Below are positions 22,394 through 64,000 of a DNA stretch of 64,000 bases, in pieces. Positions within the stretch are counted from its first letter, which is position 1. Each line of letters begins with the position of its first letter. The position numbers and the translations under genes were made by a program. This stretch comes from Xanthomonas cucurbitae (GTDB lineage Bacteria; Pseudomonadota; Gammaproteobacteria; Xanthomonadales; Xanthomonadaceae): assembly GCF_002939885.1 (NCBI RefSeq), contig NZ_MDED01000008.1:1-64000 (forward strand). The letters run 5' to 3'. The notes beneath the pieces are model-generated. The model did not search any database, had not been told where the DNA came from, and saw nothing but the letters and a program-made list of their open reading frames with translations.

Positions 22394-24778
22394 TCAGGCG
22401 TTGCGGCCGTCCTCCAGCACCCAGCACCCAAACGCCGGCCCTGCCGAATAACCGGTCTCCGGCTCGATACGGATCTGCAAGGTGGCGCGGCCTGCGACCG
22501 CTGCGGGCAAGGCGTAGTCCACATCGACGAAGTCCAGGCCGCGGTTGCCGTCGAGGCGTTCGTTGGCGATGAGTTCGCCATCGGCGAGGAGGCGGAAGCG
22601 GCGACGGGTTTCGTCGCCCCAGTAGCGCAAGCGCAGGATGCGGGCCTGGGCGGTGTTGCGCAAGGTGAAAGCGATGAAGCCGCCAGTGCGCGCGTCGCGG
22701 CCGGCACGCCTGCGGTAACTGAGGGCGTAGGAGCTGGCGCTGGTCAGGGAGTGGGCCTTCTCGGAGGCTTCGTCGCCCAGGGCCATGTAGTCGAGCGCAC
22801 TGGCATCCAGCGTCTGCTGTCGATGCGCGGCGGCGGCCTGCTCGACCTGGCGTTGCTGCCAGGCGACGGCATCGCGGTGTTCGAGATAGACCGCGCTGCG
22901 GCGGTCGAACTGGGCGTAGAACGGCGACAGGCGCCATTGCTGCGTGCCGTTGAGATACTGGTAATGGCCATGCGCCGGTAGCGGCTGCAGGCGCTGCAAG
23001 ACCTCGTCGCCGCCGATCAAGGCCGGCGTCTGTTGGTTCCATGGTTTGGCAGCGTCGCCAAGATCGGCGGCCAACACCAGCGGGCCGCGCATGACCGTCA
23101 CCCACGCAGGATCGTCGGGGGTGGGCTCCAGACGCAGTGGCATCTCCAGTTGCAGCGACACCGTGTCGCCAGCAGCCCATACCCGTTCGATGCGCAGATA
23201 GCCGTCGATCGGCTGCAAGCCCTGCAACTGATTGTTGACCCGTAGCGTGAATGCGCTGGCCCAGCCGGGCACACGTAGCGCGAGCGTGCGCGCCGCTGCC
23301 GGCGCCGCATCGACCTGCAGCGTGACCTGGCCCTGTTCGGGCAGTGTGCTGCGCAGGCTGAGCGCGAAACCGGCCGCATCGCGCACCGTGGAGGGCACAT
23401 ACAGGTTGACGTACACGCCCTGCCCGTCTTCCCAATAGATCGAGTCACCAAACTGCGCATGCGATTCCATGCCGCTACCGACGCAGCACCAGAAATCACC
23501 GAACGGCGACGACCAGGCGCGCGCCTCGCCGGCCAGCAACGGTGTCATGTAGGTGAACATGCCGGTGCGCGGATGCTGCTGGGCCATCACATGATTGAGC
23601 AAGGTGCGTTCGTAGTAGTCGAAGAACGCCGCTTGCGGCCCCCACTGATGCAGGTGGCGGGTGAGCTTGAGCATGTTGTAGCTGGCGCAATGTTCGCAGG
23701 TCTGCTCGGTGAGAAACTTCGAAATACTGTTGGGTTGCTGGAAGTATTCGCGGTCGCCATTGCCGCCAATCACGTAGGTATGCTGGTCGGTCACGGTATG
23801 CCAGAAGAAGCGCGCCGCCGCGCCGGCAGCCGCATCGCCGGTGACTTCGTACTCGCGGGCCAGGCCGATGAGCTTGGGAATATTGGTATTGGAATGCTGG
23901 TGCACCAGTTCATCGCGCTGGGCGATCAAGGGGTCGAGCACGGCGTGGTGATGCAGCCGTCGCGCCACTGTCAGCCACTGCGTCTCGCCGGTGCGCAGAT
24001 GCAGTTCGACGAACGATTCGTTGAGGCCGCCGAACTCGCAGGACAGCACCTGTTGCAACTGCGCATCGTCCAGTGCCGAGAACACATCTTGCAGATAACC
24101 AGCCAGGCCAACGGCCACCTGTAGCGCCTGCGCGCTGTCGCAGTGCGCGTGCACATCGAGCAGGCCGGCAAACAGCTTGTGCCAGGTGTACAAGGGCGCC
24201 CAGCTTCCGTTGAGGTAGAACGGCGCAGGATCGATCTTGCCGCGTTTGAGCTCGTCGAACACCGCGCGCCCACTCTCGATCTGCCCGGCTGCATTCTTGC
24301 GGGTGAAGCCGGCCACGTATCCATCGCCGGCATGCGCCTGGCAACGCGCCAGTTCGCTGACCAGATAGGTAGCGCGTGCCGCACATTGCACATCGCCGGT
24401 CTGCGCATGCATCAGCGCCAGCGCACTGAGGTAATGGCCCAGTGTATGGCCGGCGATGGTGTCCGCCTCCCACCCCCCGTACGCCGGCGCCTTGGGATCG
24501 AGCCCGGCGTACAAGACGAAGTTGTGCAGCAACCGATCCGGTTCCAGCTGCATCAGGTAGCGGCGATTGACGTGCAGTGCGTCCAGGAACAGCGAAGGTA
24601 CCAGCCGCACCTGCTTCAGCGGCACCGCACGCATGCTGCCCGGCTGGGCAGCGGCGGCATCGGCGGGAAAACGTAGAAAGCCGGCGGCCACCGCAAGACT
24701 GCTCCACGCCAGGAAACGTCGCCGCGACAGGCGACCAGCCTGATGGTGGAGTCCATTGTGATCGAATACGTCGGTCAT
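22394..24778 (-). CDS. GH127-family beta-L-arabinofuranosidase, Tat-exported (copy 1)
   Basis: A 794-aa enzyme of the DUF1680/GH127 group (GH146 is a close alternative), expected to release L-arabinose from beta-L-arabinofuranosides such as those on hydroxyproline. The N-terminus has a twin-arginine signal, SRRRFLAW (18-25). The zinc-thiolate active site is complete: CEHC (361-364) and WCC (430-432), plus Glu344 in GDREYF as candidate acid/base. By analogy to Bifidobacterium HypBA1, Cys431 or Cys432 would be the nucleophile. The (alpha/alpha)6 barrel (about 60-450) is followed by beta-sandwich domains. It lies downstream of a TonB receptor gene with a hairpin in the 123-bp gap. Confidence 0.9.
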   Translation of the reverse strand: MTDVFDHNGLHHQAGRLSRRRFLAWSSLAVAAGFLRFPADAAAAQPGSMRAVPLKQVRLVPSLFLDALHVNRRYLMQLEPDRLLHNFVLYAGLDPKAPAYGGWEADTIAGHTLGHYLSALALMHAQTGDVQCAARATYLVSELARCQAHAGDGYVAGFTRKNAAGQIESGRAVFDELKRGKIDPAPFYLNGSWAPLYTWHKLFAGLLDVHAHCDSAQALQVAVGLAGYLQDVFSALDDAQLQQVLSCEFGGLNESFVELHLRTGETQWLTVARRLHHHAVLDPLIAQRDELVHQHSNTNIPKLIGLAREYEVTGDAAAGAAARFFWHTVTDQHTYVIGGNGDREYFQQPNSISKFLTEQTCEHCASYNMLKLTRHLHQWGPQAAFFDYYERTLLNHVMAQQHPRTGMFTYMTPLLAGEARAWSSPFGDFWCCVGSGMESHAQFGDSIYWEDGQGVYVNLYVPSTVRDAAGFALSLRSTLPEQGQVTLQVDAAPAAARTLALRVPGWASAFTLRVNNQLQGLQPIDGYLRIERVWAAGDTVSLQLEMPLRLEPTPDDPAWVTVMRGPLVLAADLGDAAKPWNQQTPALIGGDEVLQRLQPLPAHGHYQYLNGTQQWRLSPFYAQFDRRSAVYLEHRDAVAWQQRQVEQAAAAHRQQTLDASALDYMALGDEASEKAHSLTSASSYALSYRRRAGRDARTGGFIAFTLRNTAQARILRLRYWGDETRRRFRLLADGELIANERLDGNRGLDFVDVDYALPAAVAGRATLQIRIEPETGYSAGPAFGCWVLEDGRNA

Positions 24779-24846
24779 TGGCTCAGTTCAAGCTCCGGTC
24801 AATGGAGGCGTTGGGTGACGAACATGCCCAGGCATGCCATTCAACG

Positions 24847-24884
24847 ATGCATCCCGCCGCCAGGATAAACGCATCGGGATGCAT
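24847..24884. promoter_or_regulatory. Inverted repeat between the TonB receptor and GH127 genes
   Basis: ATGCATCCCG (24847-24856) and CGGGATGCAT (24875-24884) are perfect 10-base inverted arms with an 18-base loop. It lies just after the receptor stop (24902) and about 70 bases before the GH127 start. It could partly terminate or protect the receptor transcript, or be an operator. Confidence 0.5.
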
Positions 24885-24901
24885 AACCATACGTCTGCTG
24901 G

Positions 24902-27796
24902 TCAGAACTTCACCGTAGCACGCGCCCAGTAGAAACGCCCAAGTACATCGTAGGTGGCCACATCGGTGTTGGCGTTGCCCGCGTTGTTGGAGTAATACAG
25001 CGGCGGCTGTTTATTGGCGATATTGTCCACGCCCACTTCGAAGCGGGTGTGCCAGGGCTGCACGTTGTAGCCCAGCTGCAGGTTGTTGTAGACATAGGCA
25101 CCGACCTTGCGCACCACGCCCGGCTGGCCGGCATCGGCAGACAGGCTTTGATCCGGGTCCGTGCTACCGATGGCGGTATTGCCCACGTAACGGATGCGCC
25201 AGGTAGCACTCCAGTCATCCAGCGACCAGCTCACCGTGCACAGGCCCCGCCAACGTGGGAAATTGCCATATGCCTGGGTGTAGCGACCCACGTTGTGGAT
25301 GGTGACCGAGCTGGGATCGGTGGTATCGGGCAGCACGTCGTAGCGTGTCAGATAGGTCCCGTTGAGGCCGGCGACCAAGTTGCCCCAGGACGTGGATGGC
25401 AGGCGATAGGTCAGGTTGAAGTCCATGCCCTTGGCCCAGAGCTTGCCCAGATTGACCGTGGGTTCGGCGATATAGTTGATGGTGCCGTTGCCGTTGCGAT
25501 GGATCAATGCGCAGAATGCGCTGGCCGAGTTGGCATAACACTGGTTGAGCACCGTCTGCGCCGAGACCGTGGTGATGGTGTCTGCCAGGTCGATCCGCCA
25601 CCAGTCGGCGCTGAGCGAGAGCCCATCGATCCATTGCGGGTCGTAGACCAGGCCCACATCGTAGGAAGTACCGGTCTCGGGCTTGAGCTGGTAGCCAGCC
25701 ACGGCCGCACCGGACGCCTTGCCCGCCACCTGGCCGTCCGCCTGCCGGTAGCTGCCATCGATGGGCACATTGGCGCAGGCCACGGCATTGCCGCCGGTGT
25801 AGCCATTGCACGGGTCGTTGACGGTGGCCGAATCGCCGGCCACGCCGGCATACAACTCGTTGATGTTGGGTGCGCGGAACACCTGCGACACGGTGCCGCG
25901 CAGCAGCAGGTCTGCGACCGGCCGATACTCCAGCGACAGCTTGCTATTGGTCTTGCTGCCGACCGAGCTGTAGTCGGAAAAACGCGTGCCCAGGGTGATG
26001 TTGAGTGCGTTGATGCCTGGCAGGTCCTTGAGCAGCGGGAACAGGGCTTCCGCATAGGCTTCCTTGACGTCGAAGCTGCCACTCAAGGTGGACGAGCAGA
26101 ATTCGATCACACCGCACAAGCCGTTCTCATCGCCTGTCCATAGCGCGTCCGATGCCGTGCTGGAGCGCTCCTTCCGATAGGAAAGACCGGCTGCAAGACT
26201 CACCCCGCCTGCAGGCAGGTCGAACAGCGTGCCATTGGCATTGGCTTCGAACTGTTTGACGGTATAGACACTGGTGACGATGGGATTGACCACCTTTCCC
26301 TGCAAGGTCGCAAGATTGGACGGGTCGTTGAGGTTGAAGAAATTGAGCGGCGTGCAGCCGGCAATCGGTGCACCTGCACTGCCGCAACGGACAGTGCCGT
26401 CGCTATCGAGGAACGATGGGCCGATGGCGCGATTGAATTGCGCATAGTCAAGAAACCCGTTGTTGATCGATTTCTGCTTGACCTTGCCGTAGTTGAAGGT
26501 GGCATCCCATTGCCAAGAGCTGTCACCGAAACTCCCGCGCAGCCCGGGGCTGATCTGGAAGTTGTAGGTGTTGTACTGGTAACTGCGGTTTCCCAGCACC
26601 GTGGCGCGCGTATTGAGGTCGTTGTATGACGTCCCGGTGCTGCGATCGGTGCCGAAGTTCACGCCGAACGGGTTGTAGTAGCTCTGCGAGGACACCAGGA
26701 TGTTGTCGCCATTGGAGAAGATCGGAATCGGCGCGATGATGGATGCGGATTCGGTCTTGCTGAACCATGTATTGACATAGCCCTCCACGCGGTCACTGAA
26801 GCGATAGGTGCCGAGCAAGAACGCGTTGGTGCGCTTTTGTGGGGTCTGCAATAGGTTGAAGGGTTGGTAGTTGTAGGAATCGGCAGCGGCGTTGTAGCAA
26901 TGAAAATCGCCTGGGCCGGCGCGGCCGCTGACACCGCTGTTGAGGGTGACGCGCCCGCAGCCGTTGGCCTGCGCAAGTTGCATGGACTGCGCAGATCCAT
27001 CGTTGAAGTTGACCGTGCCGGTGGGTGTAGCGGACGAGCCCTGCTTCACCGGCTGGCCATCGATCAAGGCCAATGCGTCCTTGGAGTAGGCGCGTGCGCC
27101 GGCCGACACCGGGTCGATGCTGTGATACGAGAGCCCGCCGATCAGGCTGCCGCGCTCCCAGCTGTGGCCGGCGGTGAGCGCGAAGTTGCGACGATTTCCA
27201 TCACGCTCGCTGCTGGTACCGAAGTCGCTGCTGAACTGCACGCCATCGAAGCGCGTGCGCAGGATGAAATTGACCACGCCGCCAATGGCATCGGAGCCGT
27301 AAACGGCAGAGGCACCATCGCTGAGCACCTCGATGCGTTCGATCATGCTGGCCGGAATGGCGTTGACGTCGTTGTAGGCCAGCCGGATACCGTTGACCAG
27401 TACCAACGTGCGTTTGTCGCCCAATCCGCGCAATGAAATCGCCGATGCACCGGTGCCACCGCCGTTGTTGGTATAGGGATTGGTGGCATTGCCGGCAATG
27501 GACGGCAGCTCCTGCAGCAGGTCGCCCACCGTGGCCTTGCCGGTGGCCGCGATCTGCTCCTGGCTAACGGTCACTACCGGGTTGGCGGTTTCGGTATCCA
27601 CACGGCGCAGACGCGAACCGGTGACCACCACGCTGTCCAGGGTCTGCGTTGCATCGCCGCCAGTCGTTTGCTGCGCATGCACCGGCGCCATGGCAGCGAG
27701 AGACAGCACGGCCATCAGTGCGCTGGCGAGCGTGCTCCGTGCCGGGTGCGTGCTGGCAAACGCGGCGTGGGAGTGAGACAACGGCAACATCGGCAT
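24902..27796 (-). CDS. TonB-dependent outer-membrane receptor (HRGP locus, copy 1)
   Basis: A 964-aa transporter with a signal peptide ending VHAQQ, the plug domain (about 50-170: LDSVVVTGSRLRRVDTETANPV ... LRGLGDKRTLVLVNGIRL ... GASAVYGSDAIGGVVNFIL), and a large beta-barrel ending in ARATVKF. This is the subgroup that imports oligosaccharides rather than siderophores in Xanthomonas. I chose ATG 27796 because AGGAG stands 6 bases ahead; a start at 27835 lacks a site. The closest relative in this window is the receptor at 44328-47144, with the same plug motifs. A long upstream region carries the bipartite element at 28063-28097. Confidence 0.93.
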   Translation of the reverse strand: MPMLPLSHSHAAFASTHPARSTLASALMAVLSLAAMAPVHAQQTTGGDATQTLDSVVVTGSRLRRVDTETANPVVTVSQEQIAATGKATVGDLLQELPSIAGNATNPYTNNGGGTGASAISLRGLGDKRTLVLVNGIRLAYNDVNAIPASMIERIEVLSDGASAVYGSDAIGGVVNFILRTRFDGVQFSSDFGTSSERDGNRRNFALTAGHSWERGSLIGGLSYHSIDPVSAGARAYSKDALALIDGQPVKQGSSATPTGTVNFNDGSAQSMQLAQANGCGRVTLNSGVSGRAGPGDFHCYNAAADSYNYQPFNLLQTPQKRTNAFLLGTYRFSDRVEGYVNTWFSKTESASIIAPIPIFSNGDNILVSSQSYYNPFGVNFGTDRSTGTSYNDLNTRATVLGNRSYQYNTYNFQISPGLRGSFGDSSWQWDATFNYGKVKQKSINNGFLDYAQFNRAIGPSFLDSDGTVRCGSAGAPIAGCTPLNFFNLNDPSNLATLQGKVVNPIVTSVYTVKQFEANANGTLFDLPAGGVSLAAGLSYRKERSSTASDALWTGDENGLCGVIEFCSSTLSGSFDVKEAYAEALFPLLKDLPGINALNITLGTRFSDYSSVGSKTNSKLSLEYRPVADLLLRGTVSQVFRAPNINELYAGVAGDSATVNDPCNGYTGGNAVACANVPIDGSYRQADGQVAGKASGAAVAGYQLKPETGTSYDVGLVYDPQWIDGLSLSADWWRIDLADTITTVSAQTVLNQCYANSASAFCALIHRNGNGTINYIAEPTVNLGKLWAKGMDFNLTYRLPSTSWGNLVAGLNGTYLTRYDVLPDTTDPSSVTIHNVGRYTQAYGNFPRWRGLCTVSWSLDDWSATWRIRYVGNTAIGSTDPDQSLSADAGQPGVVRKVGAYVYNNLQLGYNVQPWHTRFEVGVDNIANKQPPLYYSNNAGNANTDVATYDVLGRFYWARATVKF

Positions 27797-28286
27797 GCAG
27801 AACTCCTGGTTGGGACGACAGACGTGCGGCAACACACGCCCGAGCCGGCATGCACCAGCGCGGGTCGGAACAGATGGCAGGCGGTCCCGGATGCAGCAGG
27901 CCGCGATCAGGCGCTGCGGACGCAGGAAAACAGCGCAAAGCGCACACCGGCAAGTGGTGTTGCCGCAACGCGCGGTCTCTCAACGAAGTGGATACGTAGC
28001 GGAGTCGCCCATGCGCCCCGCTTTCATCAGTTGGTCACAATGTGCCTGCGTACACGCCCTGGCGTCTTGTCGCAATTGGCGACAAGGCATGCGGAAAACT
28101 GCATGTTCCAGATATTGATGGTCATGCAATGAGGTATGCGGTGCAGCGGTCTGTACCGCAGCACGCATAATCGACCAATGCTGCGCAACGGCAACCTGTG
28201 CGCGTTGGCAGCACGCCTGGTTGGGCGTGCCTGGAAAACCTGCGTGCGTTCAGCACCGACCCGGCTTGGTCGGATGCAGCGGTGCC
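27797..28286. other. Long leader/promoter region of TonB receptor copy 1
   Basis: About 490 non-coding bases lie between the GH27 stop and the receptor start. It contains the bipartite element (28063-28097), an inverted repeat CTTGTCGC-N5-GCGACAAG (28066-28086) embedded in it, and the imperfect dyad ATGCGGAAAACTGCAT (28089-28104). The distance from these sites to the start codon (about 270 bases) allows a long 5' leader. No supported gene. Confidence 0.6.
28063..28097 (-). promoter_or_regulatory. Bipartite element CGTCTTG-N18-CATGCGGAAA (site A)
   Basis: On the plus strand CGTCTTG (28063-28069) is followed after exactly 18 bases by CATGCGGAAA (28088-28097). The same two blocks with the same spacing occur upstream of two other units of the locus (47364-47398 and 50122-50156). 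Read in the direction of transcription it is TTTCCGCATG-N18-CAAGACG. It may be an operator or an unusual promoter. Confidence 0.7.
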
Positions 28287-29924
28287 TCAGGGCCGCAGTG
28301 CCAGCAGAACCACACCATGTGCTGCCACCCGCACGCTTCGGGTGGATGGCCCCAGGCGGCGTCCGCGCCAGAGGTCACGCACCTGGGCGATGTGCGCCAA
28401 GCCTGCGTCTGCGGGCGTAAACGTCACATCCCGTGCCTGCGTGCCGCGATTGAACACGCCCAACGCCACCCTGCCATCAGCAAGCGGCTTGGACCACAGT
28501 TCGATGCCGTCGGCCTTGCGCACCGCGCGCCCCTGCCGGCCAAGCGGGTCCTGATCGATCGCCAGAACATCCTGGTTGCGCAACAGCCGCAAGGTGGCTG
28601 GCGACATCGCCCGCAGATCGTTGCCCAGCAGCAGTGGCGCAGCCGACAGTGCCCACAGACTCATGTGTGTGCGGTACTCCTCTTCCTGCATGCCGCCGTT
28701 GCCGATCTCCAACATGTCCGGGTCGTTCCAGCCACCCGGTCCGGCGTCGTCAGGGTTGCCGTTGCTGTCGAAGCCAATCCGCGCCATCGATGCGTAGTGG
28801 TCTTCGATATCACCGGTGGTGCGCCACAGATGTCCGCCGACCTCGCGGCCCCAACGGCCGACACTGTCGCGGCCGTACTGGCACAGGCTGTAGACCATCG
28901 GCCGGCCGGTGGCGCGCAATGCCTGGCCCATCTGCTGATAGGCACGCCTGCGCGTGTCGGCGCTCCGAAAGATGCCCTCGCCCGAGCACAGGTCGTATTT
29001 GAGATAGTCGATGCCCCATCCCGCCCAGGTGGCGGCATCCTGCTCGACATGCCCGTAGCTGCCGATGTAGCCAGCACAGGTCTTGGGGCCGGGCGAGCTA
29101 TACAGGCCCAGTTTCAATCCGCGCGCATGCACGTAGTCGGCCAGTGCACGCATGTCGGGAAAGCGCGCATTGGGATGCAGCACGCCGGCGGCATCGCGCT
29201 CGCCTTGCCAGCCGTCGTCGATATTGACGTAGCGGTAGCCGGCATCGCGCAAGCCGGAAGACACCAGCGCATCGGCGATGGCACGGATGGTTGCTGCGTC
29301 GATCTTGTCGCCGAAGCGGTTCCAACTGCTCCAGCCCATCGGCGGCGTACGCGCCTGGCCATCGGGCGCAAGCCGTTGCAATGGCGGCAGCGGCGCGCTG
29401 TGGAACGCCAGACGCTGCGCATCGGCGGCACTGCCCCGTCGGCCGACGACATCCACCTCGGTGTGCCAGATGCGTCCGCTCACCCGCAGCTGCCCGTCGC
29501 GCACGCTGGCCACCCACGGTAGCGGCGGCAATCTGGCATTGCCATTATCGATCTGGAACTGCGCCACCCCGTCGACGATACGCAGCTGGTTCATTGGCAG
29601 ATCGCCATACCAGTCGGTGGTGATGCTGCCTTGCAGCTGCCCGTCGCGCCGTTCGATCCGCAGCAGGCGCGCACCGGGAAACGACGGCCCATCGCCAAGG
29701 ATCCAGATGCCTTCCAGGGCAGTGGCGGGGGCCTGGGCGGCTGGTGCCGTAGCGGCACCGACCTGCCCATGACAACCTGCTGTCAGCACTACCGCAATGA
29801 CCAGCAGTGTGGTCACAACCGCAGCGCGGAGCAACCGCAGGTGGCGGGTGGACACAGGAGACACCCGGCCACGGCGCTGCAAGCGCGAGGATTCGCCGGG
29901 ACGACAGATGCGCGCGGTACTCAT
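28287..29924 (-). CDS. GH27 alpha-galactosidase, probable lipoprotein
   Basis: A 545-aa enzyme. A basic N-terminus and hydrophobic helix end in a lipobox (VVLTAGC, Cys51). An extra beta domain (about 65-185) precedes the GH27 barrel, which starts TPPMGWSSWNRFG (193-205). The nucleophile is Asp311 in YLKYDLCSGEG. The acid/base is probably Asp372 in RTTGDIED, matching the family RxxxD motif. GGWNDPDMLEIGN follows. ATG 29924 overlaps the upstream GH127 stop (ATGA); a GTG 15 bases earlier is possible. In this locus a likely target is the alpha-galactose on extensin serines, but beta-L-arabinopyranosidase activity also occurs in GH27, so specificity is open. Confidence 0.9.
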   Translation of the reverse strand: MSTARICRPGESSRLQRRGRVSPVSTRHLRLLRAAVVTTLLVIAVVLTAGCHGQVGAATAPAAQAPATALEGIWILGDGPSFPGARLLRIERRDGQLQGSITTDWYGDLPMNQLRIVDGVAQFQIDNGNARLPPLPWVASVRDGQLRVSGRIWHTEVDVVGRRGSAADAQRLAFHSAPLPPLQRLAPDGQARTPPMGWSSWNRFGDKIDAATIRAIADALVSSGLRDAGYRYVNIDDGWQGERDAAGVLHPNARFPDMRALADYVHARGLKLGLYSSPGPKTCAGYIGSYGHVEQDAATWAGWGIDYLKYDLCSGEGIFRSADTRRRAYQQMGQALRATGRPMVYSLCQYGRDSVGRWGREVGGHLWRTTGDIEDHYASMARIGFDSNGNPDDAGPGGWNDPDMLEIGNGGMQEEEYRTHMSLWALSAAPLLLGNDLRAMSPATLRLLRNQDVLAIDQDPLGRQGRAVRKADGIELWSKPLADGRVALGVFNRGTQARDVTFTPADAGLAHIAQVRDLWRGRRLGPSTRSVRVAAHGVVLLALRP

Positions 29925-32356: not shown

Positions 32357-32362
32357 ATCGAT

Positions 32363-35300: not shown

Positions 35301-35413
35301 GTGCCAGTCGCCTGCTGCGCAACGGCATGTTCGGTGGGCAGCAACGCCATGGCGATGGCGAGGCCAGTCAACAGAGGAATACAGCGACGACACGAACGAC
35401 GTGCATCTTGCAT
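32363..35413 (-). CDS. Oar-like TonB-dependent receptor with carboxypeptidase-regulatory-like N-domain
   Basis: A 1016-aa outer-membrane transporter. After a signal peptide ending HAVAQ comes a small beta-sandwich (about 35-105; GTLYGTVSTNEAAQVVIRNT, NRDGRFSVDGLVPGQYRVEL) typical of Oar proteins. Next are a plug with YNNLLTQLPQIYMAQ and a large barrel ending GLILRYNWN. This architecture differs from the two other receptors of the locus, suggesting a different cargo, possibly glycopeptides. GAGGTGA precedes ATG 35413. It is the first gene of an operon with GH127 copy 2 and GH27. Confidence 0.92.
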   Translation of the reverse strand: MQDARRSCRRCIPLLTGLAIAMALLPTEHAVAQQATGTLYGTVSTNEAAQVVIRNTGTGASQTRTPNRDGRFSVDGLVPGQYRVELQVAGRSLDVQDVVVRPGSATQVAELASGDKQAATLDTVQVRADAVNNAADNTVPIDVTTPVLVRQYSEALFRKTGVDTSGASDGGSYNNLLTQLPQIYMAQVTTGQGSGLASFNGGSGTETRYYINEFDTTFDYTGAGASSVPGDMIGSAQVIANGASAKYSNAMGGSVSATTKSGDNTLRAGFASSIGLPPSRTLNPRVRPYLIEQRNGVNRYYYQDQSTNGSTETSFNNTYFLSGPLLNDKLFFNVVLQNNRPQSQSSFMAGEVGEEWRTFRSAYNNPALNLSWVISDAQQFDLTAARSDRKNYTSISTLAEPSNPASERSYLRDILFESHDAFYLGRYRWQLNDTMNLSLMAGYFSHMEKNSFSDSGLYAVRFDEPGGVANVLANGVRDSEEPVTYHKRGFRADYTWQLGEHKLQLGAEHYDLSFDSLSLFGRNGDYTYLNYGRDQDRAVVGDLVVPANTPILLTHVGRSGGPLGQVNRGGYVEDYWQAADHWVVYGGVRRDNSGARLANGRNVLDLYTTSPRLGVSWDVRGDSTMKLGASAGIYTMPVPGVILTSLFNDFSDAYVASTYAGINPDGTPIAPRQIGTYTNASIIGEPVTLTSRNLRNARQDSYTLYLQDNQLLPHWSSTLEFNHSSVKRALAVWNDLSSGLSSPAYKYLQSLGFADPHLTNNMLVNPGSAVVIDNDLNGDGQRERVTLPGLATGLAKPRREIYSTSLELVHPETPEQPVFLLFGYTWKHVYGNYEGYYGETNGNVLGAPNFRYASLSAGNNGDLPADVRHVLRFNGSHTFGASGLSLGLGAVWQSGAPRSCYSQYPDPTDAAYDAGPSAFYCDGVAVSRGSLGRFPSWWTLDMNAAYERHWGPQMLRLELLVNNLLNQDTEVASVPFYGSYAGQVNGQPTWERDRYYGAKREIYPRTTGLILRYNWN

Positions 35414-38070: not shown

Positions 38071-38106
38071 GTGCATCCTCATGCAGGCACTGGTACGAAA
38101 GAGCGC

Positions 38107-56339: not shown

Positions 56340-56518
56340 AACTGGCCTCGAACGATTGGAAAACGCGGTTGCTGCGGAGGATGGCACGGTGGCGCATGCC
56401 GTGTGGCAGTCAGTGGTGGTGCGATGTACTCAGCCGTGCGCGGTGGTCCTGCACACGCCGCCGCGCACCGATGTCAGCGCGCGTACCCAGCAAGTGGTCC
56501 AGGCGCGTATGGCAGCAC

Positions 56519-58387
56519 TCAGTCATCGGCACCTGCCCCTGCATCGGCGGAGTCTGTCGCGGCGTCGTCCGGAGACGGCGACACACCGCCATCGGCGATG
56601 AAGCGGTCGATGCGCGCTTCCAGCACCGGCAGCGGCACCGAACCGGTCTGCAACACCGCATCGTGGAAGTGGCGCAGGTCGAATTTCTCGCCCAGCGCGG
56701 CTTCGGCCTTGTGCCGTAATTCGAGAATCTTCAACTCGCCCAGGTAATACGACAGCGCCTGCCCGGGCCAGGCGATGTACCGATCCACCTCGGTGGTCAC
56801 TTCATGCTCGCTCAGCGCGGTGTTGTCGCGCAGATACGCCTGCGCCTGTTCGCGCGTCCAGCCCTTGTGGTGGATGCCGGTGTCGATCACCAGGCGGCAG
56901 GCACGCCACGCCTGATAGGTGAGATAACCGAAGCGGTCGTAGGGCGTGTCGTACATGCCCATTTCCTGACCCAGGTACTCCGAGTACACCGCCCAGCCTT
57001 CGCCATAGGCCGAGATGAACGTGTAACGACGAAAATCCGGCAGGCTCTGCGTTTCTGCGGCCAGCGGCATCTGCAGCGCGTGCCCGGGCGAGGACTCGTG
57101 TAGGGTCAGCGCGGTCAGGTTGTACAGCGGCCGCGATGGCAGATCGTAGGTATTGACCAGGTAGATCCCCGGCCCCCCGCGGCCGCCGGTATAGAACGGT
57201 GCCAGCTCCGGCGGCACCGGTTCGATGGCGAAGCGGCGCCGTGGCAGGCGGCCGATATAGTTGCCCACCTTGGCATCCACGCGCTTGGCGATCCATGCCG
57301 CCTGCTTGAGCAATTCTTCCGGCGTCTTGGTATAGAACTGCGGGTCGGTGCGCAGGAAATGCAGGAACGCCGGAAACACCGGCTGCCCGGCCGGCGGCTT
57401 GAAGCCGCTCTCCACGATGGTAGCGTCCATCTGCTTGCGCAGCTTGGCGACCTCCTGCAGGCCGATCTGGTGGATCTGCTCGGGACTCAGGTCCAGCGTG
57501 GTGAACTCGCGGATCTGCGCGCGGTAATAGGCCTTGCCATCGGGCAAGGCTTCGCCGGCCAGCGTGGCGCGCGCGCGCGGCTGGTACTCGTTGCGGATGA
57601 AGTCCAGCAAGCCGGCATAGGCCGGCACCACCTGGGTGTCGATGGTCTGCACCGCCTGCTGCCGCAACTGCGCCTGCACCGGCGCCGGCAGCGTGGCCGG
57701 CATCTGCTTGAACGGGGCGTAGAACGGATTGGCCTGCCCGCGCGCCTGCGCCACATCGGCAATGGATTGATCGCGCCCGCGCAGCGTGACCTTGGGCTGG
57801 CTGAAGCCCCGAGCCAACCCGGCGCGCATATTGGCCGTGTGCTCGGAAAAATAGCGCGGGATATCGGCCAGCATCTTCAGATAGCGCTGATAGTCCTCGC
57901 GCGTGCGCAGCGTGGCCTGCGCACTGAAGCCCAGGTCGCTCCAGAACGCCGAGTCGCTGTTGAACGGCATCTCCCAGGCACGGAAATGCTGCTGATCCAG
58001 CAGCACCTGCAGCTGCTGTCGATACACCTGGTAATTCACCTGGTCCTCGGCCGACAGCTGCGCCGGCCCGATCGCATCCAGCTCGGCCAATGCCTGTTGC
58101 CAATACGCGGTGCGCTGGTTCTGGGTGGCGACATCGACCTTGGGCAGATGGTCGGCCTGGCGCTGCTGGGTGGCCTGGTTGTCTTCATCCACCGCGCCGG
58201 ACACCTGCGCCTGCCGCCACTGCCACTCGCGCGTATACAACGCCTTGAAGCGGGCTGCGGCCGTGCCCTGCACGGTGGTTGCCGGCTCGGCGGCATACGC
58301 CTGCACGGGCGTGCCGCCCAGGCTGGCTGCAATCAGCAGGCTCAACGCACTGATGCGCAACATGGTGTGTGTCTGCGATACGCTCAT
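56519..58387 (-). CDS. DUF885 putative metallopeptidase, exported (copy 1)
   Basis: A 622-aa protein with a signal peptide (to about residue 30-33, VQAYA). It belongs to the DUF885 family, which is placed among zinc peptidases of the MA type. The putative metal/catalytic motif is His430-Glu431-xxxx-His436 in LHESSPGHAL, followed by the EGWAVYSEYLG segment with a possible third ligand. A mainly helical architecture fits the family. ATG 58387 overlaps the stop of copy 2 (ATGA). Cleavage of proline/hydroxyproline-rich peptides is my inference from neighbours. Confidence 0.85.
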   Translation of the reverse strand: MSVSQTHTMLRISALSLLIAASLGGTPVQAYAAEPATTVQGTAAARFKALYTREWQWRQAQVSGAVDEDNQATQQRQADHLPKVDVATQNQRTAYWQQALAELDAIGPAQLSAEDQVNYQVYRQQLQVLLDQQHFRAWEMPFNSDSAFWSDLGFSAQATLRTREDYQRYLKMLADIPRYFSEHTANMRAGLARGFSQPKVTLRGRDQSIADVAQARGQANPFYAPFKQMPATLPAPVQAQLRQQAVQTIDTQVVPAYAGLLDFIRNEYQPRARATLAGEALPDGKAYYRAQIREFTTLDLSPEQIHQIGLQEVAKLRKQMDATIVESGFKPPAGQPVFPAFLHFLRTDPQFYTKTPEELLKQAAWIAKRVDAKVGNYIGRLPRRRFAIEPVPPELAPFYTGGRGGPGIYLVNTYDLPSRPLYNLTALTLHESSPGHALQMPLAAETQSLPDFRRYTFISAYGEGWAVYSEYLGQEMGMYDTPYDRFGYLTYQAWRACRLVIDTGIHHKGWTREQAQAYLRDNTALSEHEVTTEVDRYIAWPGQALSYYLGELKILELRHKAEAALGEKFDLRHFHDAVLQTGSVPLPVLEARIDRFIADGGVSPSPDDAATDSADAGAGADD

Positions 58388-60192
58388 TTGACTGCTCCCG
58401 GTATGGTCTTGGCCTGTGCAATCCACTGCTGCACGCGCTGCTGCAGCATCCCCAACGGCATCGCACCGCCGCCCAGCACGGCGTCGTGGAAGGCGCGCAC
58501 ATCGAAATGATCACCCAACGCTTTTTCCGCTTGCGCGCGCAGCGCCAGGATCTGCAGCTCGCCAAGCTTGTAGCCCAGTGCCTGACCCGGCCAGACGATG
58601 TAGCGGTCGGTTTCCGATTGGATGCTGGGTTCGTCGTCGGACGGATGCGCGTGGAAGAAATCCACCATCTGCTGCCGGTTCCAGCGTTTGTAATGCACAC
58701 CGGTATCCAGCACCAGGCGGTTGGCGCGCAGCAACTCGCCCGATAGCCGGCCGTAGTCGTTATAGGGGTCCTTGAAGAAGCCGATCTCCTTGCCCAGCCG
58801 CTCGGCATACAGCGCCCAGCCTTCGATGTAGGCGTTGTAGCCGGCCTGCTGGCGGAACGGCGGCAATGGCAGCGTCTGGGCGAGCGAAATCTGCAGGTGA
58901 TGACCTGGCACGCCCTCGTGGTAGGCGGTGGTTTCGATATTGACCAGCGTGCGGCTGGCGAAGTCGCTGGTATTGACCTTCACGATCGCCGGCTTGCTGC
59001 CTTCCGGGTTGCTTTGCCAGTATTCGGCGCTCGGCGCGGTCCGCCGGAACGCCGGCATCGCCTGCACCTCCAGCGGCGTTTTGGGCAGGTGCCCGAACAG
59101 CCTGGGCAGCTCCGGTTCCATCGCGGCGATGTACTGGCGGTAGTGCTGCAGGATCTGTTCGCCGGAGGTGGCGAAATGGCGCCTGTCGGTCTCCACCGCC
59201 TTGCGGAAGCTGGACAGGTCGGCAAAGCCCTGCGCCTGGGCGATCACCGCCATCTCGCCTTCGATGCGCGCCACTTCCCGCAGGCCGATCTGGTGGATCT
59301 GCTCCGGTGCCATGTCGGTAGTGGTCTGGGTATGAATGGCGTAGCGATAGCGGCGCTCGCCATCGGGCAGCGACCAGAGGCCTTCGGAACGACGCCCCTG
59401 CGCGGCGTATTCGTCGCGCACGAAGGCGGACAGCTTACCGTAGGCCGGGCGGACCTGCTGGTCGATCGCGGCCAGCAACTGCTTGCGCACCGCATCGCGC
59501 TGGTCGGCCGGCACCGCCGCAGCGAGTTTCTTCAACGGCGAGGCGAACGGGCTCTGCTCGCCGGTGAGCGCAGCCATCTTGTCGATCTGCTCGGGCAGGC
59601 GCTGCAGCAGGTAACGCGGCTGCACCAACCCGTCTTTGGCACCCTGCCGCGAGACCGCAATGATCTGGTCGATCACGCCCGGAATGGCCTGCAGCCGGGT
59701 GATGTAGTCCTGGTAATCCTTGGCATTTTCGAATGGAAACGCATCGCCATAGCCGGCCAGCGCCAGCTGGATGCCGCCCACCGGTTCCAGCGGCATTGCA
59801 TAGGTCTTGAGGTCGATGCCCTCCAGCTTGTCGCGCAACTGGCCCAGCATCATCTGCAGGCTGAGCTGGCGTTGCGCGTCCAGCGCCTTGGCATCCACCG
59901 CTTCAAACTGCCGGAGCAGCGCGGCGGTGGCACGGCGGTCGTCCTGCACTGCTTCCGGCGAGTAGTTGGTCCAGCGATCGTTGTAGCGCTTGTCGCCGAT
60001 GATGCTGGCGAACTCGGGGTTGTGCTGCAGCTGGTACTGCCACTGCTTGTCCAACAGCGCATCGAAGGCCTTGGCGGCCTGTTCGCTGCTGGCTGCGGCA
60101 GCCGGTTTCTCCGGGGCTGGCGGGGCCGGTTTGCAGGCGGTGAACACTGCCGCTGCAAGCAGGCCGATTGCGACAGATCGCAGGTGGCTCAT
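58384..60192 (-). CDS. DUF885 putative metallopeptidase, lipoprotein (copy 2)
   Basis: A 602-aa paralogue with a lipobox (AAVFTAC, Cys20) and an Ala/Pro linker. The motif YHEGVPGHHLQ (His425-Glu426 ... His431/His432) and EGWALYAERLG (Glu457) correspond to those of copy 1. One copy is lipid-anchored and the other appears soluble, which suggests two locations or two steps rather than redundancy. It is the first gene of the pair, about 100 bases after the M24 peptidase gene. Confidence 0.87.
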   Translation of the reverse strand: MSHLRSVAIGLLAAAVFTACKPAPPAPEKPAAAASSEQAAKAFDALLDKQWQYQLQHNPEFASIIGDKRYNDRWTNYSPEAVQDDRRATAALLRQFEAVDAKALDAQRQLSLQMMLGQLRDKLEGIDLKTYAMPLEPVGGIQLALAGYGDAFPFENAKDYQDYITRLQAIPGVIDQIIAVSRQGAKDGLVQPRYLLQRLPEQIDKMAALTGEQSPFASPLKKLAAAVPADQRDAVRKQLLAAIDQQVRPAYGKLSAFVRDEYAAQGRRSEGLWSLPDGERRYRYAIHTQTTTDMAPEQIHQIGLREVARIEGEMAVIAQAQGFADLSSFRKAVETDRRHFATSGEQILQHYRQYIAAMEPELPRLFGHLPKTPLEVQAMPAFRRTAPSAEYWQSNPEGSKPAIVKVNTSDFASRTLVNIETTAYHEGVPGHHLQISLAQTLPLPPFRQQAGYNAYIEGWALYAERLGKEIGFFKDPYNDYGRLSGELLRANRLVLDTGVHYKRWNRQQMVDFFHAHPSDDEPSIQSETDRYIVWPGQALGYKLGELQILALRAQAEKALGDHFDVRAFHDAVLGGGAMPLGMLQQRVQQWIAQAKTIPGAVK

Positions 60193-60289: not shown

Positions 60290-61489
60290 TCATGCAAACG
60301 GTTGGTCGATCGCCGGCGACGGCGGGGTAAACCACTGCGCGCCAGCGTCGGTGACATGGAAATGATCTTCCAGGCGCACGCCGAACTGCCCCGGCACCAC
60401 GATCATCGGTTCGTTGCTGGCACACATGCCCGGCTGCAGCGGCAATCGGTTGCCGCGCACCAGATACGGCGCCTCGTGTATGGCCAGCCCGCAGCCATGG
60501 CCGGTGCGATGCGGCAGCCCGGGCAACCGATACTCCGGGCCCAACCCTGCCGCTTCCAGCACCGTACGCGCCGCCTGATCCACCGCCTCGCAAGCCACGC
60601 CGGGGCGGATCGCCGCGAATGCCGCAGCCTGCGCGGCCTGTTCAAGGTCCCAGATGCGCTGCTGCGCCTCGTTGGGCGTGCCATAGATCCAGGTGCGGGT
60701 GATATCGGAATGGTAGCCCTGTACGGTGCAGCCGGTGTCGATCAGCACCAGCTCGCCTTCGCGCAACTGCTGCACGCCCGGAATGCCATGCGGGAAGGCA
60801 GTCGCGTGGCCAAACTGCACGATGCAGAAGGTCGAGCCGTTGTCTGCGCCCAGCGCGCGATGCGCTTCATCGATGAAACGCACCAGCTGGTCGGTGCCGA
60901 TGCCTTCGTGCGCGATGCCGGCGGCCAGGCGCTGCACCAGCAAGGTCATGTCGCAGGCCTGCTGCATCAGCGCCAGCTCGGCGGGCGACTTGCACATGCG
61001 GCAGCCGTCGATGATGACCCCCGCGTCGCGGATGGCGGTGCCCAGATGCGCACGCAGGCCGGTGTGCACGGCAAAGGCGATGCCCGGGTCCAGCGCCAGC
61101 GCATGCGCACGGCGATCGTCCATGACCTGTACCACCAGCGCATACGGGTCCTGGTGTTCTTCCCACAGGAATTTGGCCACCGGAATCTGCAGTACCGCGT
61201 CCAGCGAGCCTTCCTCGAAGGCCGGGCAGATCAGCGCCGGATCGCCATCGATGGTGAGCAGCATCGCCACCAGCCGTTCGCTGGCACCCCACGCCACACC
61301 GGTGAAATAGCGCAACGAGGTCCCGGCACCGATCAACAGCGCATCCACGCCATGCGCACGCATCAGCCCACGCGCACGCTCGATGCGCTGCGCATATTCA
61401 TCGGCCGCGATCGGCGCGGCACGCTGCGTCCAGGGCGCCAGTTGTGCACGCGCCTGCTGCAGCGACAGGCCACCGATCTGGGCGCTCAT
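60290..61489 (-). CDS. Cytoplasmic M24 Xaa-Pro peptidase
   Basis: A 399-aa pita-bread-fold metallopeptidase with no signal peptide. All five metal ligands are present: Asp251 (VLIDTGC), Asp262 (HSDITRTW), His331 (RTGHGCG), Glu360 (SNEPM) and Glu374 (VRLEDHF). The N-terminal creatinase-like domain spans about 25-165. M24 enzymes with this layout cut Xaa-Pro bonds (PepQ/PepP type). ATG 61489 overlaps the stop of the aldehyde dehydrogenase gene (ATGA), which couples peptide cleavage to the catabolic enzyme and suggests a role in freeing Pro or Hyp inside the cell. Confidence 0.93.
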   Translation of the reverse strand: MSAQIGGLSLQQARAQLAPWTQRAAPIAADEYAQRIERARGLMRAHGVDALLIGAGTSLRYFTGVAWGASERLVAMLLTIDGDPALICPAFEEGSLDAVLQIPVAKFLWEEHQDPYALVVQVMDDRRAHALALDPGIAFAVHTGLRAHLGTAIRDAGVIIDGCRMCKSPAELALMQQACDMTLLVQRLAAGIAHEGIGTDQLVRFIDEAHRALGADNGSTFCIVQFGHATAFPHGIPGVQQLREGELVLIDTGCTVQGYHSDITRTWIYGTPNEAQQRIWDLEQAAQAAAFAAIRPGVACEAVDQAARTVLEAAGLGPEYRLPGLPHRTGHGCGLAIHEAPYLVRGNRLPLQPGMCASNEPMIVVPGQFGVRLEDHFHVTDAGAQWFTPPSPAIDQPFA

Positions 61490-63081
61490 GCGCCCGCTTC
61501 CACATCAGCGGTACTCCACTGTCCGTCCACCAGCCGCGCCACACCACCGGGATTGCGCTGGCGCAGTTCCACTGGCAGCAAGGCATCGGGCACCGCGTCG
61601 TAGCTATGCAAGGCCGCGAAACGACGGATCGCGCCCGGCATGCCCACGGCGGTGAAGCCTGGATGCCCAGTGCTGGGAAACGGCCCGCCATGATTCTGCG
61701 CCGCGCTCACCGCCACGCCGGTTGGCATCTTGCTGTTGATGAGGCGTCCCACCCGTGCGCGCAGCACCGGCGCAATGGCCTGCCAGGCGGCATCGTCGCT
61801 GCCATCGCTTGCGCGATACAGCGTGCCGGTGAGGTTGCCTTCGAAGGCGGCCGCCAACTGCGCCAGCTGCGCAGTGTCGCGCGTGCGCACCAGCAGGCTT
61901 ACCGGGCCAAAGGCCTCGGTCTGCAACTCCTGCGGATTGGCCAGGAACACCTGCGCCTCCACGCTGAGCAAGGTGGGCGCGTAGCGGAAACCGTCTTCGC
62001 CACGCTGCCCGCCGGCCAGCACGGACCCGCCGGCCGCAACCAGGCTCGCCACACCACGCTGCACGCCCTCCACACCGGATGCGGAGAACAGCACCATCGG
62101 CAAGGCCGCTGCGAAATGGCCCTTGGTGGCGGCAACGAAGGCATCGCCCGCCGCGCCGTGCGGCACCACCACCACGCCAGGATTGGTGCAAAACTGCCCG
62201 CTACCCAGCGTGCACGAGGCGAAGAACTCCTGCGCCAGCGCATCGCCGCGCTCGGCCAGCGCACCGGGCAGCAGGAACACCGGATTCACGCTGGACAGCT
62301 CGGCGTAGAACGGTACGCCAGCCGCATCGGCAGCCGCCTTCAAGGCCAGGCCGCCGGCGCGGCTGCCGGTGAACCCGATCGCCCCCAGCCGCGCGTCGCC
62401 GGCCAGGCGCGCACCGACTGCGGTATCCAGGTGATACAGCAACTGCACCGCCGCCGCCGGCAGGCCTGCGGCCAGCAGCGCCTGATGCGCGAGCTGGGCC
62501 ATGCGCTGGCTGGTGGCCGGATGCAGCGGATGCGCCTTGGCGATCACCGGGTTGCGCGCGGCGATGGCCGAGGCGAAATCGCTGCCGGCAATCGCATTGA
62601 ACGCGAACGGAAAATTGTTGGGGCCGAACACCAGCACCGGCTTGCCCAGCGGCGCCAGATGCGAACGCAGATCGGCGGCGGTGTCGATGATGGGGTTGGT
62701 CCAGCTGTAGCTGCGTACCGCCTTGGCTGCCTGGCGCAACTGCCCGCTGGTGCGCGGCAGCTCGTTGCCACGCAGGCGCGTGGGCGCCGGCAAGGCGGTT
62801 TCTGCATGCGCGAGCGCGACCAGGGTGTCGGCATCGGCATCCAGCGCGTCGGCGTAGCCCTCCAGAAAAGCGGCGATGCGCTCGGCCGGTGCGGCGGCAA
62901 ACTCGGCGGCCACCGCCTGCGCGGCACGCAACGCGGTCGCTATGTCCTCGGCACCACTGATCGGAAACAGCGGGCCGATCGGCTCGCCGGTGGTGGGATC
63001 GGCAGCACGGAAGCTGTCGCTGGCCGCATGGCTGGGCTGCCATTGGCCGGCGAGCAGGATGGGTTGCAGCATGTCGTTCAT
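61486..63081 (-). CDS. 2-oxoglutarate semialdehyde (2,5-dioxovalerate) dehydrogenase
   Basis: A 531-aa aldehyde dehydrogenase. The nucleophile is Cys298 in GSGQFCTNPG and the general base Glu261 in FYAELSSVNP. The FGPNNFPFAFN motif, the length and the QFCTNPG context place it in the type III alpha-ketoglutaric semialdehyde dehydrogenase group, which ends hydroxyproline (and sometimes pentose or sugar-acid) degradation by making 2-oxoglutarate. Adjacent to a DapA-like deaminase it fits the hydroxyproline route. ATG 63081 (MNDMLQPILLAGQW) is the family start; the frame opens 33 codons earlier without support. Confidence 0.88.
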   Translation of the reverse strand: MNDMLQPILLAGQWQPSHAASDSFRAADPTTGEPIGPLFPISGAEDIATALRAAQAVAAEFAAAPAERIAAFLEGYADALDADADTLVALAHAETALPAPTRLRGNELPRTSGQLRQAAKAVRSYSWTNPIIDTAADLRSHLAPLGKPVLVFGPNNFPFAFNAIAGSDFASAIAARNPVIAKAHPLHPATSQRMAQLAHQALLAAGLPAAAVQLLYHLDTAVGARLAGDARLGAIGFTGSRAGGLALKAAADAAGVPFYAELSSVNPVFLLPGALAERGDALAQEFFASCTLGSGQFCTNPGVVVVPHGAAGDAFVAATKGHFAAALPMVLFSASGVEGVQRGVASLVAAGGSVLAGGQRGEDGFRYAPTLLSVEAQVFLANPQELQTEAFGPVSLLVRTRDTAQLAQLAAAFEGNLTGTLYRASDGSDDAAWQAIAPVLRARVGRLINSKMPTGVAVSAAQNHGGPFPSTGHPGFTAVGMPGAIRRFAALHSYDAVPDALLPVELRQRNPGGVARLVDGQWSTADVEAGA

Positions 63082-63272
63082 TGCAGCACCTTCGATTGCA
63101 TGGAAGGGACCGCCGCGCAGCGTGCTGCAGCGGCAGACCAGGGGACGATACGCAGCTCGCACGAGGTGCGGCCTGCGCATCGATCAGGACACGCCCGCCA
63201 TGCAGGCGACGGCATGCCTATGCGACGCACCGGCGGAGTGTCGCAGTGCGCCGCGTCATGGTGCCTGCAAAA

Positions 63273-64000
63273 TCACGACAACTTGGGCGCATGTGCGATG
63301 GCATGGTCGATCACCTTCAGCGCCGCCTCGCGCTCGGCGCCGGCCACCGCCAGACGCGGCGCACGCACCTGCTCGCTCCCCATGCCCACCTTTGCCTGCA
63401 CCAGCTTGATCAACTGCACGAAGGTCGGCACGGTATCCAGGCGCAGCAGCGGCAGGAACCAGTTGTACAGCTCCCTGGCCGCCGGGTAGCCGCCATCGCG
63501 CGCCAGCTCGAACAGGCGCACCGATTCGGTCGGATAGGCATTGACCAGGCCGGCAACCCAGCCCTTGGCACCCATGCTCAGGCCTTCGACGATGGCATCG
63601 TCCATGCCCACCAGCAGCGCCAGGCGGTCGCCCAGCAGTTCCTGCAGCGCGGCAAAGCGACGCACGTCGCCGGAAGATTCCTTCACTGCCTGCAGGTTCG
63701 GGAACTCGCTGGCCAGCTCGGCGATCTGCGCCGGGCCGAAATCGGTCTTGTAGGCCACCGGGTTGTTGTACAGGATCACCGGCAGATCGGTCGCGCCGAT
63801 CACCGCGCGCACATGCGCGCCCATCTCGCGCCAATCGGTGGAATACACGTAAGGCGGCAACACCATCAATCCGCCGCAGCCGATCTCCTTGGCCGCCTTG
63901 GCCAATGCCACCGCTTCGCCGGTCGCCAGGCTGGCGATGCCCGGCACCACCGGCACCCGGCCGTTCAAGGCGGTCACCAGGGTCCGCAGGACCGCCAGCT
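63273..64000 (-). CDS. DapA-family lyase, probable 1-pyrroline-4-hydroxy-2-carboxylate deaminase (5' end missing)
   Basis: The C-terminal 241 codons or so of a DHDPS/NAL-superfamily TIM barrel; the frame is open to the window edge, so the N-terminus is lost. It has the barrel tyrosine in VILYNNPVAYKTDFG and the Schiff-base lysine in LQAVKESSGD (positions 70 and 99 counted from the internal GTG at 63977). True DapA has a different pocket context, and here the neighbour is a 2-oxoglutarate semialdehyde dehydrogenase. That pairing is the signature of the trans-4-hydroxyproline pathway, in which the enzyme deaminates and dehydrates the pyrroline to 2-oxoglutarate semialdehyde. Function is inferred mainly from context. 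Confidence 0.8.
   Translation of the reverse strand, partial: LAVLRTLVTALNGRVPVVPGIASLATGEAVALAKAAKEIGCGGLMVLPPYVYSTDWREMGAHVRAVIGATDLPVILYNNPVAYKTDFGPAQIAELASEFPNLQAVKESSGDVRRFAALQELLGDRLALLVGMDDAIVEGLSMGAKGWVAGLVNAYPTESVRLFELARDGGYPAARELYNWFLPLLRLDTVPTFVQLIKLVQAKVGMGSEQVRAPRLAVAGAEREAALKVIDHAIAHAPKLS

Follow-up and report, generated by a model that had tools for sequence, protein, structure and literature searches.

The stretch analysed here (the window) comprises 64,000 nucleotides of Xanthomonas cucurbitae DNA (contig NZ_MDED01000008.1), and contains most genes of a locus that encodes glycosidases for arabinosylated hydroxyproline (Hyp), TonB-dependent receptors, peptidases, an amino-acid permease and enzymes of Hyp catabolism (Table 1). 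The locus consists of 21 minus-strand genes in 45.5 kb, running from window position 22394 to about contig position 67902, so that its right end lies 3.9 kb beyond the window; plus-strand genes flank it on both sides, htpG on the left and ftsY on the right. From 22394 rightward every long open reading frame (ORF) with a recognised family is on the minus strand, and the region's ten long plus-strand ORFs are all without a Pfam match. A first-pass annotation, made from the sequence alone, had described a one-strand locus of about 40 kb; ORFs and family matches bear out its gene list, including a glycoside hydrolase (GH) 121-like enzyme, GH43, GH27, GH35, two S9 peptidases, two DUF885 proteins, an APC permease and an M24 peptidase, and the true extent is larger. 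The ATGA start/stop overlaps that it reported are possible at six of the 20 gene junctions, five of them inside the window, while gaps of 92-713 bp at nine places leave several transcription units possible. It had also counted three TonB receptors, two of which score as such in Pfam; the remaining one (32363-35413) has only a carboxypeptidase-regulatory domain above cut-off and is a putative receptor. Both of the Hyp-catabolism enzymes that it listed are present, as part of a total of five, three of which lie beyond the window edge.

Table 1. Genes of the locus and of its left boundary; positions refer to the window unless marked as contig positions
Feature	Position	Strand	Evidence and remarks
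htpG	20372..22309	+	NF003555 797 bits, cut-off 371; left boundary
GH146-type beta-L-arabinofuranosidase, twin-arginine motif	22394..24778	-	PF07944 452 bits; 5opj 410 bits
TonB-dependent receptor 1	24902..27835	-	PF00593 + PF07715
GH27 alpha-galactosidase-like	28287..29939	-	PF16499 231 bits; ATGA overlap with upstream gene if start = 29924
Second GH146-like protein, twin-arginine motif	29921..32356	-	PF07944 422 bits; 56% identity to first copy
Putative outer-membrane receptor, carboxypeptidase-regulatory N-terminus	32363..35413	-	Sole above-cut-off match PF13620
S9 peptidase a (dipeptidyl peptidase (DPP)/prolyl oligopeptidase family), predicted exported from N-terminus	35743..38082	-	PF00930 + PF00326
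GH43 alpha-L-arabinofuranosidase, XeHypAA ortholog	38107..39822	-	PF04616; ATGA overlap with GH121 if start = 39693
GH121 beta-L-arabinobiosidase, XeHypBA2 ortholog	39690..44081	-	NF041578 1047 bits
TonB-dependent receptor 3	44328..47144	-	PF00593 + PF07715; adjoins GH121 in relatives
U822, 785 aa, twin-arginine motif	47713..50070	-	Without Pfam/NCBIfam/PDB match
GH35-type beta-galactosidase with DUF5597	50784..52424	-	NF051902 464 bits (cut-off 500); PF18120, PF01301; ATGA overlap with upstream gene
S9 peptidase b, DPP IV-like, predicted exported	52421..54835	-	PF00930, PF00326; 2ecf 'Dipeptidyl peptidase IV' 166 bits
APC-family amino-acid permease	54753..56387	-	PF13520 149 bits
DUF885 putative metallopeptidase a	56519..58426	-	PF05960 522 bits; HESSPGH motif
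DUF885 putative metallopeptidase b	58384..60192	-	PF05960 565 bits; 3o0y 286 bits; lipobox-like FTAC; HEGVPGHH motif
M24 Xaa-Pro dipeptidase, export signal not seen	60290..61489	-	5cik/4r60 'Proline dipeptidase' 823 bits over 398 residues
Alpha-ketoglutarate-semialdehyde dehydrogenase (KGSADH)-type aldehyde dehydrogenase (ALDH), putative HypH	61486..63180	-	PF00171
HypD, DHDPS-family deaminase	63273..64000, on to contig 64181	-	Family match
D-Hyp dehydrogenase-like subunits (putative role)	contig 64178-65701 and 65726-67222 (ORF ends)	-	Family matches
4-Hyp epimerase	contig 66964 to about 67902	-	NF010577 418 bits (cut-off 442); 4juu 649 bits; Cys93, Cys243

Three of the glycosidases, of families GH146, GH121 and GH43, are orthologs of the X. 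euvesicatoria enzymes XeHypBA1, XeHypBA2 and XeHypAA (XCV2724, 2729 and 2728). The product of 22394-24778, which the first-pass annotation had assigned to GH127, matches PDB entry 5opj, which we take to be a GH146 enzyme, far better than 4qjy, titled GH127 (410 against 73 bits), and the ortholog XCV2724 has been termed a GH146 member in print; on both grounds we replace the GH127 label with GH146. E362, C364, C431 and C432 are present in this protein, and both PF07944 copies in the locus carry the E-x-C and CC features of the GH127/GH146 superfamily. The Cys nucleophile as such is known from print, whereas its positions in the PF07944 copies are those that we presume. Compared with the X. euvesicatoria locus L035, identity is 82% for GH146 and, over the catalytic parts, 86% for GH43 and 81% for GH121; the GH43, GH121, first GH146, TonB receptor and S9 genes stand in the same relative order, and 22394-24778 is assigned as the XeHypBA1 ortholog by identity and gene order together. 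Relative to L035, the window has an extra receptor-GH146-GH27 set inserted, and its S9 gene is one open frame. The catalytic-pocket acids of HypBA2 (Glu383, Asp515 and Glu713) are present in the GH121 protein (IEGVLGYN, GNDADAVSF and QNEFW) and are invariant in seven sequences, in contexts that agree with the published HypBA2 primers and text; the protein matches positions 32-1411 of the 1709 of NF041578, a model of the narrower HypBA2 equivalog with a cut-off of 3200 bits. Within the genus, the GH121 of this 4.42-Mb genome shares 75-80% identity with the GH121 of many Xanthomonas. XeHypAA, XeHypBA2 and XeHypBA1 jointly clear Ara4-Hyp in vitro (PMC6085000).

The second GH146 copy behaves as a module that is present or absent among relatives: it is paired with GH27 in L018, L021, L023, L025, L030 and L034, occurs also in L005, L009, L020, L022, L026 and L036, and in the window is placed with the second receptor. 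Signs of decay were seen in X. phaseoli (L027), where receptor 1, GH146 and receptor 3 are matched in several pieces, and in G214, where GH121 is matched in three.

At the right of the locus stand five Hyp-pathway genes, encoding the ALDH, HypD, a putative two-subunit D-Hyp dehydrogenase and 4-Hyp epimerase (HypE). Beyond HypD, an FAD oxidoreductase resembling sarcosine-oxidase alpha and a DAO-family oxidoreductase are followed by the epimerase, which has both active-site Cys residues, Cys93 (MCGHGT) and Cys243 (PCGTGT), and matches the X. campestris structure 4juu. HypD has the Lys of AVKESSGD, presumably its Schiff-base Lys, and DAAO-type dehydrogenase, DHDPS-type deaminase and ALDH form one block. 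The suspicion that HypE is disrupted by stops in relatives was rejected in the one case checked (L056, G017), where the apparent stop precedes the likely true start. A 40% identical KGSADH paralog of the locus ALDH lies in a glucarate/galactarate operon with its own kdgD (G000:C6 10000-29999, L079). The prolidase matches solved proline dipeptidases, which we take to be from X. campestris, nearly end to end. The HESSPGH and HEGVPGHH motifs suggest that the DUF885 proteins are metallopeptidases; the PDB chains matched by the second are named lipoprotein or uncharacterized.

Missing from the first-pass gene list is U822 (47713-50070), for which neither single-sequence nor profile searches gave a match in Pfam, NCBIfam or PDB, and for which the best E in PADLOC was 0.028. 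It is conserved, with 185 residues invariant in an alignment of 22 distinct sequences that span two classes. Membership of a known family was rejected on the libraries and on profile-profile comparison, which gave a probability of 0.3% each against the GH146/GH127 alignment and against GH121; the GH121 alignment sets HGW-NESDACLF of U822 opposite the GNDADAVSF loop, which is suggestive only. Twin-arginine motifs occur in three proteins, U822 and both GH146 copies. U822 is likely a new enzyme family and probably a glycosidase. It is present in the window and in loci L004-L036, L077, L082, L083 and L088-L090. U822 and GH35 are about 0.7 kb apart in the window and 2.7 kb apart, with no separate long same-strand ORF in between, in L055 (6616-9293, G017) and L066 (10502-13204, G231). 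A gene for a GH127 C-terminal domain lies near U822 in L047 (3351-5303, P. boreopolis) and L052 (6257-8233, Pseudoxanthomonas helianthi).

The glycosidases and the Hyp block are linked well beyond the source genome. In an even draw of 247 genomes of the family, with counts uncorrected for kinship, GH121 was found in 26, the epimerase in 54 and U822 in 31 at the set E-values. Every GH121 genome has the epimerase (26/26), in 22 of them on the same contig at a distance of 19.0-32.9 kb; in the other four it is on another contig, in assemblies of 130 to 520 contigs. The same holds for U822 (31/31 with epimerase; 26 on the same contig, 13.4-27.2 kb apart), the remaining five being four assemblies of 110 to 520 contigs and G012. 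A P of 1.8e-20 from the family counts is a plain hypergeometric value that ignores kinship. The best control for linkage to the Hyp block is the comparison of close and distant GH146 proteins. A close relative (53% or more) is present in 34 genomes; all 34 have the epimerase, and in 28 the two lie within 17-43 kb of each other; among 22 genomes with distant GH146 (34-44%), one is linked, 12 have it on another contig or far away and nine have no epimerase. Even in G028, G029 and G162, which have neither U822 nor GH121, GH146 lies 17-22 kb from the epimerase. From these comparisons, the coupling of glycosidases to Hyp genes does not look accidental, and comparative genomics gives good support to the view of the first-pass annotation that the stripping of Hyp glycosides, the cleavage of Pro/Hyp peptides and the breakdown of Hyp are linked.

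Neighbourhoods of the epimerase, read in 16 of the 54 epimerase genomes, suggest a layered assembly. In 15 of the 16 the prolidase gene lies next to the Hyp genes, the exception being G015. Beyond the Hyp core, the stretches read show only an S9 gene and a distant TonB receptor in G065 and G221, and an APC gene in G091, where a contig end cuts the stretch; in G001 and G158, U822, GH146 and a TonB receptor are added and GH121 was not seen in the stretches read. Two members of the source genus, G140 and G207, lack GH121, GH43 and the third receptor in the stretches read, yet keep the Hyp block, both DUF885 genes, APC, GH35, U822, S9a, receptor 1 and GH146; S9b is absent from the G140 version. 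The Hyp-peptide core with GH146 and U822 therefore seems older than the GH121-GH43 part, unless the latter was lost. In the G001 locus, MmeI-type DNA-methyltransferase and helicase-like genes lie between U822 and S9b (L044 14485-19990).

Outside the family, U822 is rare: it was found in 3 of 398 genomes across the phylum, the source included, and, within the family of G595, a member of another class, in 4 of 249 (with G595 counted in both surveys). Five U822 genomes were found outside the order, four of them from the other class. In all four of these, GH146, GH35, M24, APC, HypE, HypD and a TonB receptor lie within about 21 kb, with identities of 47-50% for GH146, 36-37% for HypE, 40-43% for HypD and 26-29% for the receptor; DUF885 is present in three and a KGSADH-like gene in two, GH121 and GH43 in none, and gene orders differ. 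That these genes remain together despite rearrangement across so great a distance is the strongest evidence that they share a function. GH121 was not found within 10 kb of Hyp genes outside the family, in six actinobacterial loci and Dyella; the epimerase is elsewhere in the genome in four of the six actinobacterial genomes and in Dyella.

In X. euvesicatoria the GH121-GH43 operon is induced by HrpX and in planta and has a plant-inducible promoter (PIP) box upstream (PMC6085000). In contrast, the window has no exact match to the PIP box TTCGB-N15-TTCGB, and none of its six one-mismatch sites precedes GH121. Among 37 named GH121 loci, a PIP-type box lies upstream in 11 (nine at about -129 to -149 from the approximate start) and no box was found in 26, one of which, L037, has almost no upstream DNA. 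The source genome does have hrpB4. This distribution suggests that HrpX control was added in part of the genus, or was lost here; an addition would agree with the continued pathogenicity of the mutants. No hypR gene lies in the locus, the part of the genome that was searched for it.

The L-arabinose isomerase (AraA_N) domain was not found in the genome by a search that was positive in 5 of 14 control genomes, and arabinose catabolism through the isomerase was rejected. The three DHDPS-family genes of the genome are HypD of the locus, kdgD of the glucarate/galactarate operon and dapA (269 bits, cut-off 206), so that none is spare for an oxidative arabinose route. HypD itself might have been an arabinose-pathway dehydratase, but this now appears less probable since it sits with the epimerase and D-Hyp dehydrogenase-like genes, and since the other KGSADH-DHDPS pair lies in the glucarate/galactarate operon. 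Thus no arabinose route was found through the isomerase or DHDPS-family genes, aldolase-type routes not having been searched, and the claim of the first-pass annotation that the sugars are consumed is unsupported for arabinose. Nakamura 2018, citing other work, states that X. euvesicatoria is unable to use L-arabinose (PMC6085000). In Biolog GN2 data for Xanthomonas, L-arabinose was negative in 5/7 strains and non-informative in 2/7 (PMC9866238, Table 3). Galactose released by GH27 and GH35 could be usable.

Starting from the gene content, the orthology to biochemically tested enzymes and the linkage, all of which the above data establish, we think it likely that the genes form a single nutritional locus that targets arabinosylated, Hyp-rich glycoproteins of the plant wall, with extensins the likeliest substrate. 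Hyp-linked arabinosides would be stripped one after another by GH43, GH121 and GH146, and GH27, GH35 and U822 would take off further sugars. Glycopeptides would cross the outer membrane via the TonB receptors, Pro/Hyp peptides would be trimmed by exported S9 and DUF885 peptidases, and small products would be imported through the APC permease. Hyp would then be freed by the cytoplasmic prolidase and converted to alpha-ketoglutarate through the epimerase, the two-subunit D-Hyp dehydrogenase, HypD and KGSADH. Uptake, peptidase specificity, the roles of U822, GH27 and GH35, flux to alpha-ketoglutarate and any joint regulation of these genes are inferred; the words 'complete' for the system and 'extensin' for its substrate are likewise interpretative. 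Because no arabinose route was found, we read sugar removal as the means to the peptide and not as the meal, the gain presumably being the amino-acid backbone, chiefly Hyp. More tentatively, at somewhat under even chances, we propose that a dedicated route from glycan to alpha-ketoglutarate was put together in, or passed between, at least two proteobacterial classes around a core of GH146, U822, GH35, prolidase, APC and Hyp genes, that U822 represents a new family of exported glycosidases with specificity for Hyp-linked glycans, and that HrpX control of GH121-GH43 was acquired later in part of Xanthomonas.

Several observations weigh against a single nutritional locus. The epimerase, GH35 and GH121 all score under their NCBIfam cut-offs, and no regulator was recognised among the 21 locus genes or the ten plus-strand ORFs. 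A common operator in the locus gaps was rejected: no motif shared by the 11 intergenic gaps was found, the best being common to three, and ten shuffles reached 3-4. Of the 54 epimerase genomes, 23 have neither U822 nor GH121; in G012, an assembly of about 10 contigs, U822 and GH146 are on another contig than the epimerase and seem truly apart. In Dyella marensis, a GH121-GH43-GH146-GH27 set lies on a different contig from the Hyp block, which there forms one locus with U822, DUF885 and a receptor, and in G462, of the same class and another order, an S9 gene is the sole locus-type neighbour of U822 in the 40 kb read, with neither Hyp nor GH146 genes. Nakamura 2018 interprets these genes as decaying in Xanthomonas (PMC6085000). 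Finally, Biolog GN2 plates read at 24 h scored hydroxy-L-proline as negative for 5/7 Xanthomonas strains, as non-informative for 2/7, among them X. campestris, and as positive for none (PMC9866238, Table 3), which as it stands speaks against free Hyp as food; use of peptide-borne Hyp, lack of induction or the short assay could explain it. The free-standing epimerases, the missing intergenic motif and the possible multiple transcription units would all suit two independent neighbouring islands, one for Hyp/proline-peptide catabolism and one for plant sugar, that share no function. We hold this improbable, given that close GH146 proteins are linked in 28 of 34 genomes against 1 of 22 for distant paralogs, and that the same content recurs, rearranged, in another class in 4/4 genomes of one family. 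Nor do we give much credence to the idea that the glycosidases are mainly a virulence tool, weakening the plant wall or the Hyp-rich glycoprotein defence matrix, with Hyp use incidental: the HrpX and in planta induction in X. euvesicatoria, the hrpB4 gene here and the PIP-type boxes at 11 of 37 loci speak for it, whereas single and triple mutants of X. euvesicatoria remained pathogenic (PMC6085000), the window GH121 and 26 of the 37 loci have no box, and the GH146-U822-Hyp linkage extends to another class.

That arabinose is the food, with the peptide and Hyp genes a side business, would follow the Bifidobacterium counterpart, which frees arabinose for use (PMC6085000); with neither the isomerase domain nor a DHDPS gene besides dapA, kdgD and HypD to serve it, within the routes searched, and with no positive strain in the Biolog data, we regard this as very improbable. 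A different substrate broken down by the same mechanism, such as an arabinogalactan protein, a solanaceous lectin or secreted peptide hormones, has a modest chance of being right and overlaps with the nutritional locus proposed above. GH35 and GH27 would fit other Hyp-rich glycoproteins too; where GH121 was not found (G140, G207, G001 and G158), the Hyp block is still accompanied by U822 and GH146, and GH35 is present in three of these four stretches and in 4/4 of the other class. GH27, on the other hand, would fit the galactose that extensins carry on Ser. The tested Hyp-arabinosides are assigned to extensin and solanaceous lectins alike, whereas the GH43-GH121-GH146 set fits Ara4-Hyp, which accounts for 33-75% of plant-wall Hyp residues (PMC6085000).

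If a nutritional locus for Hyp-rich glycoproteins is the correct interpretation, it offers a possible answer to a published question. In the parts of the paper available to us, Nakamura 2018 does not connect the X. euvesicatoria enzymes to Hyp catabolism, asks why the bacterium has them and reports no use for them, neither arabinose use nor loss of pathogenicity (PMC6085000). The enzymes could expose a Hyp-rich backbone, and the same locus encodes its catabolism; this could explain the retention of wall-sugar enzymes that seem to serve neither arabinose feeding nor virulence. Among titles and abstract openings of the open-access literature we recognised no publication linking Hyp-arabinosidases to Hyp catabolism; a paper on polyhydroxybutyrate mentions an arabinofuranosidase and a hydroxyproline 2-epimerase once each (PMC12542648). 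In addition, U822 is a conserved protein family described in none of the libraries searched.

The locus combines features of several known systems. To our knowledge, the HypBA1-HypBA2-HypAA cluster of Bifidobacterium longum includes no Hyp catabolism. It does share with the window GH121 and GH43 enzymes acting on Hyp-arabinosides, and differs in having an ABC sugar importer and an intracellular GH127 (PMC7263609); the locus contains TonB receptors and an APC permease but no ABC genes. The epimerase, DAAO, DHDPS and ALDH superfamilies are those of the 4HypE pathway described by the Enzyme Function Initiative, and the parts of that paper covered contain no link to glycosidases and no occurrence of 'extensin' (PMC4113996). 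HypR regulons of Alteromonadales join the Hyp pathway to secreted collagenases, proline dipeptidases, permeases and a TonB receptor (PMC5343134); in the window locus, glycosidases replace the collagenases, a plant glycoprotein would be the substrate and hypR is missing, and the locus would be a plant counterpart to these collagen-to-Hyp regulons. Xanthomonas also possesses carbohydrate utilisation loci with TonB-dependent transporters (CUT loci). These place TonB receptors beside carbohydrate-active enzymes and an inner-membrane transporter, as does the window locus, which, with no recognised regulator, differs from them in ending in amino-acid catabolism.

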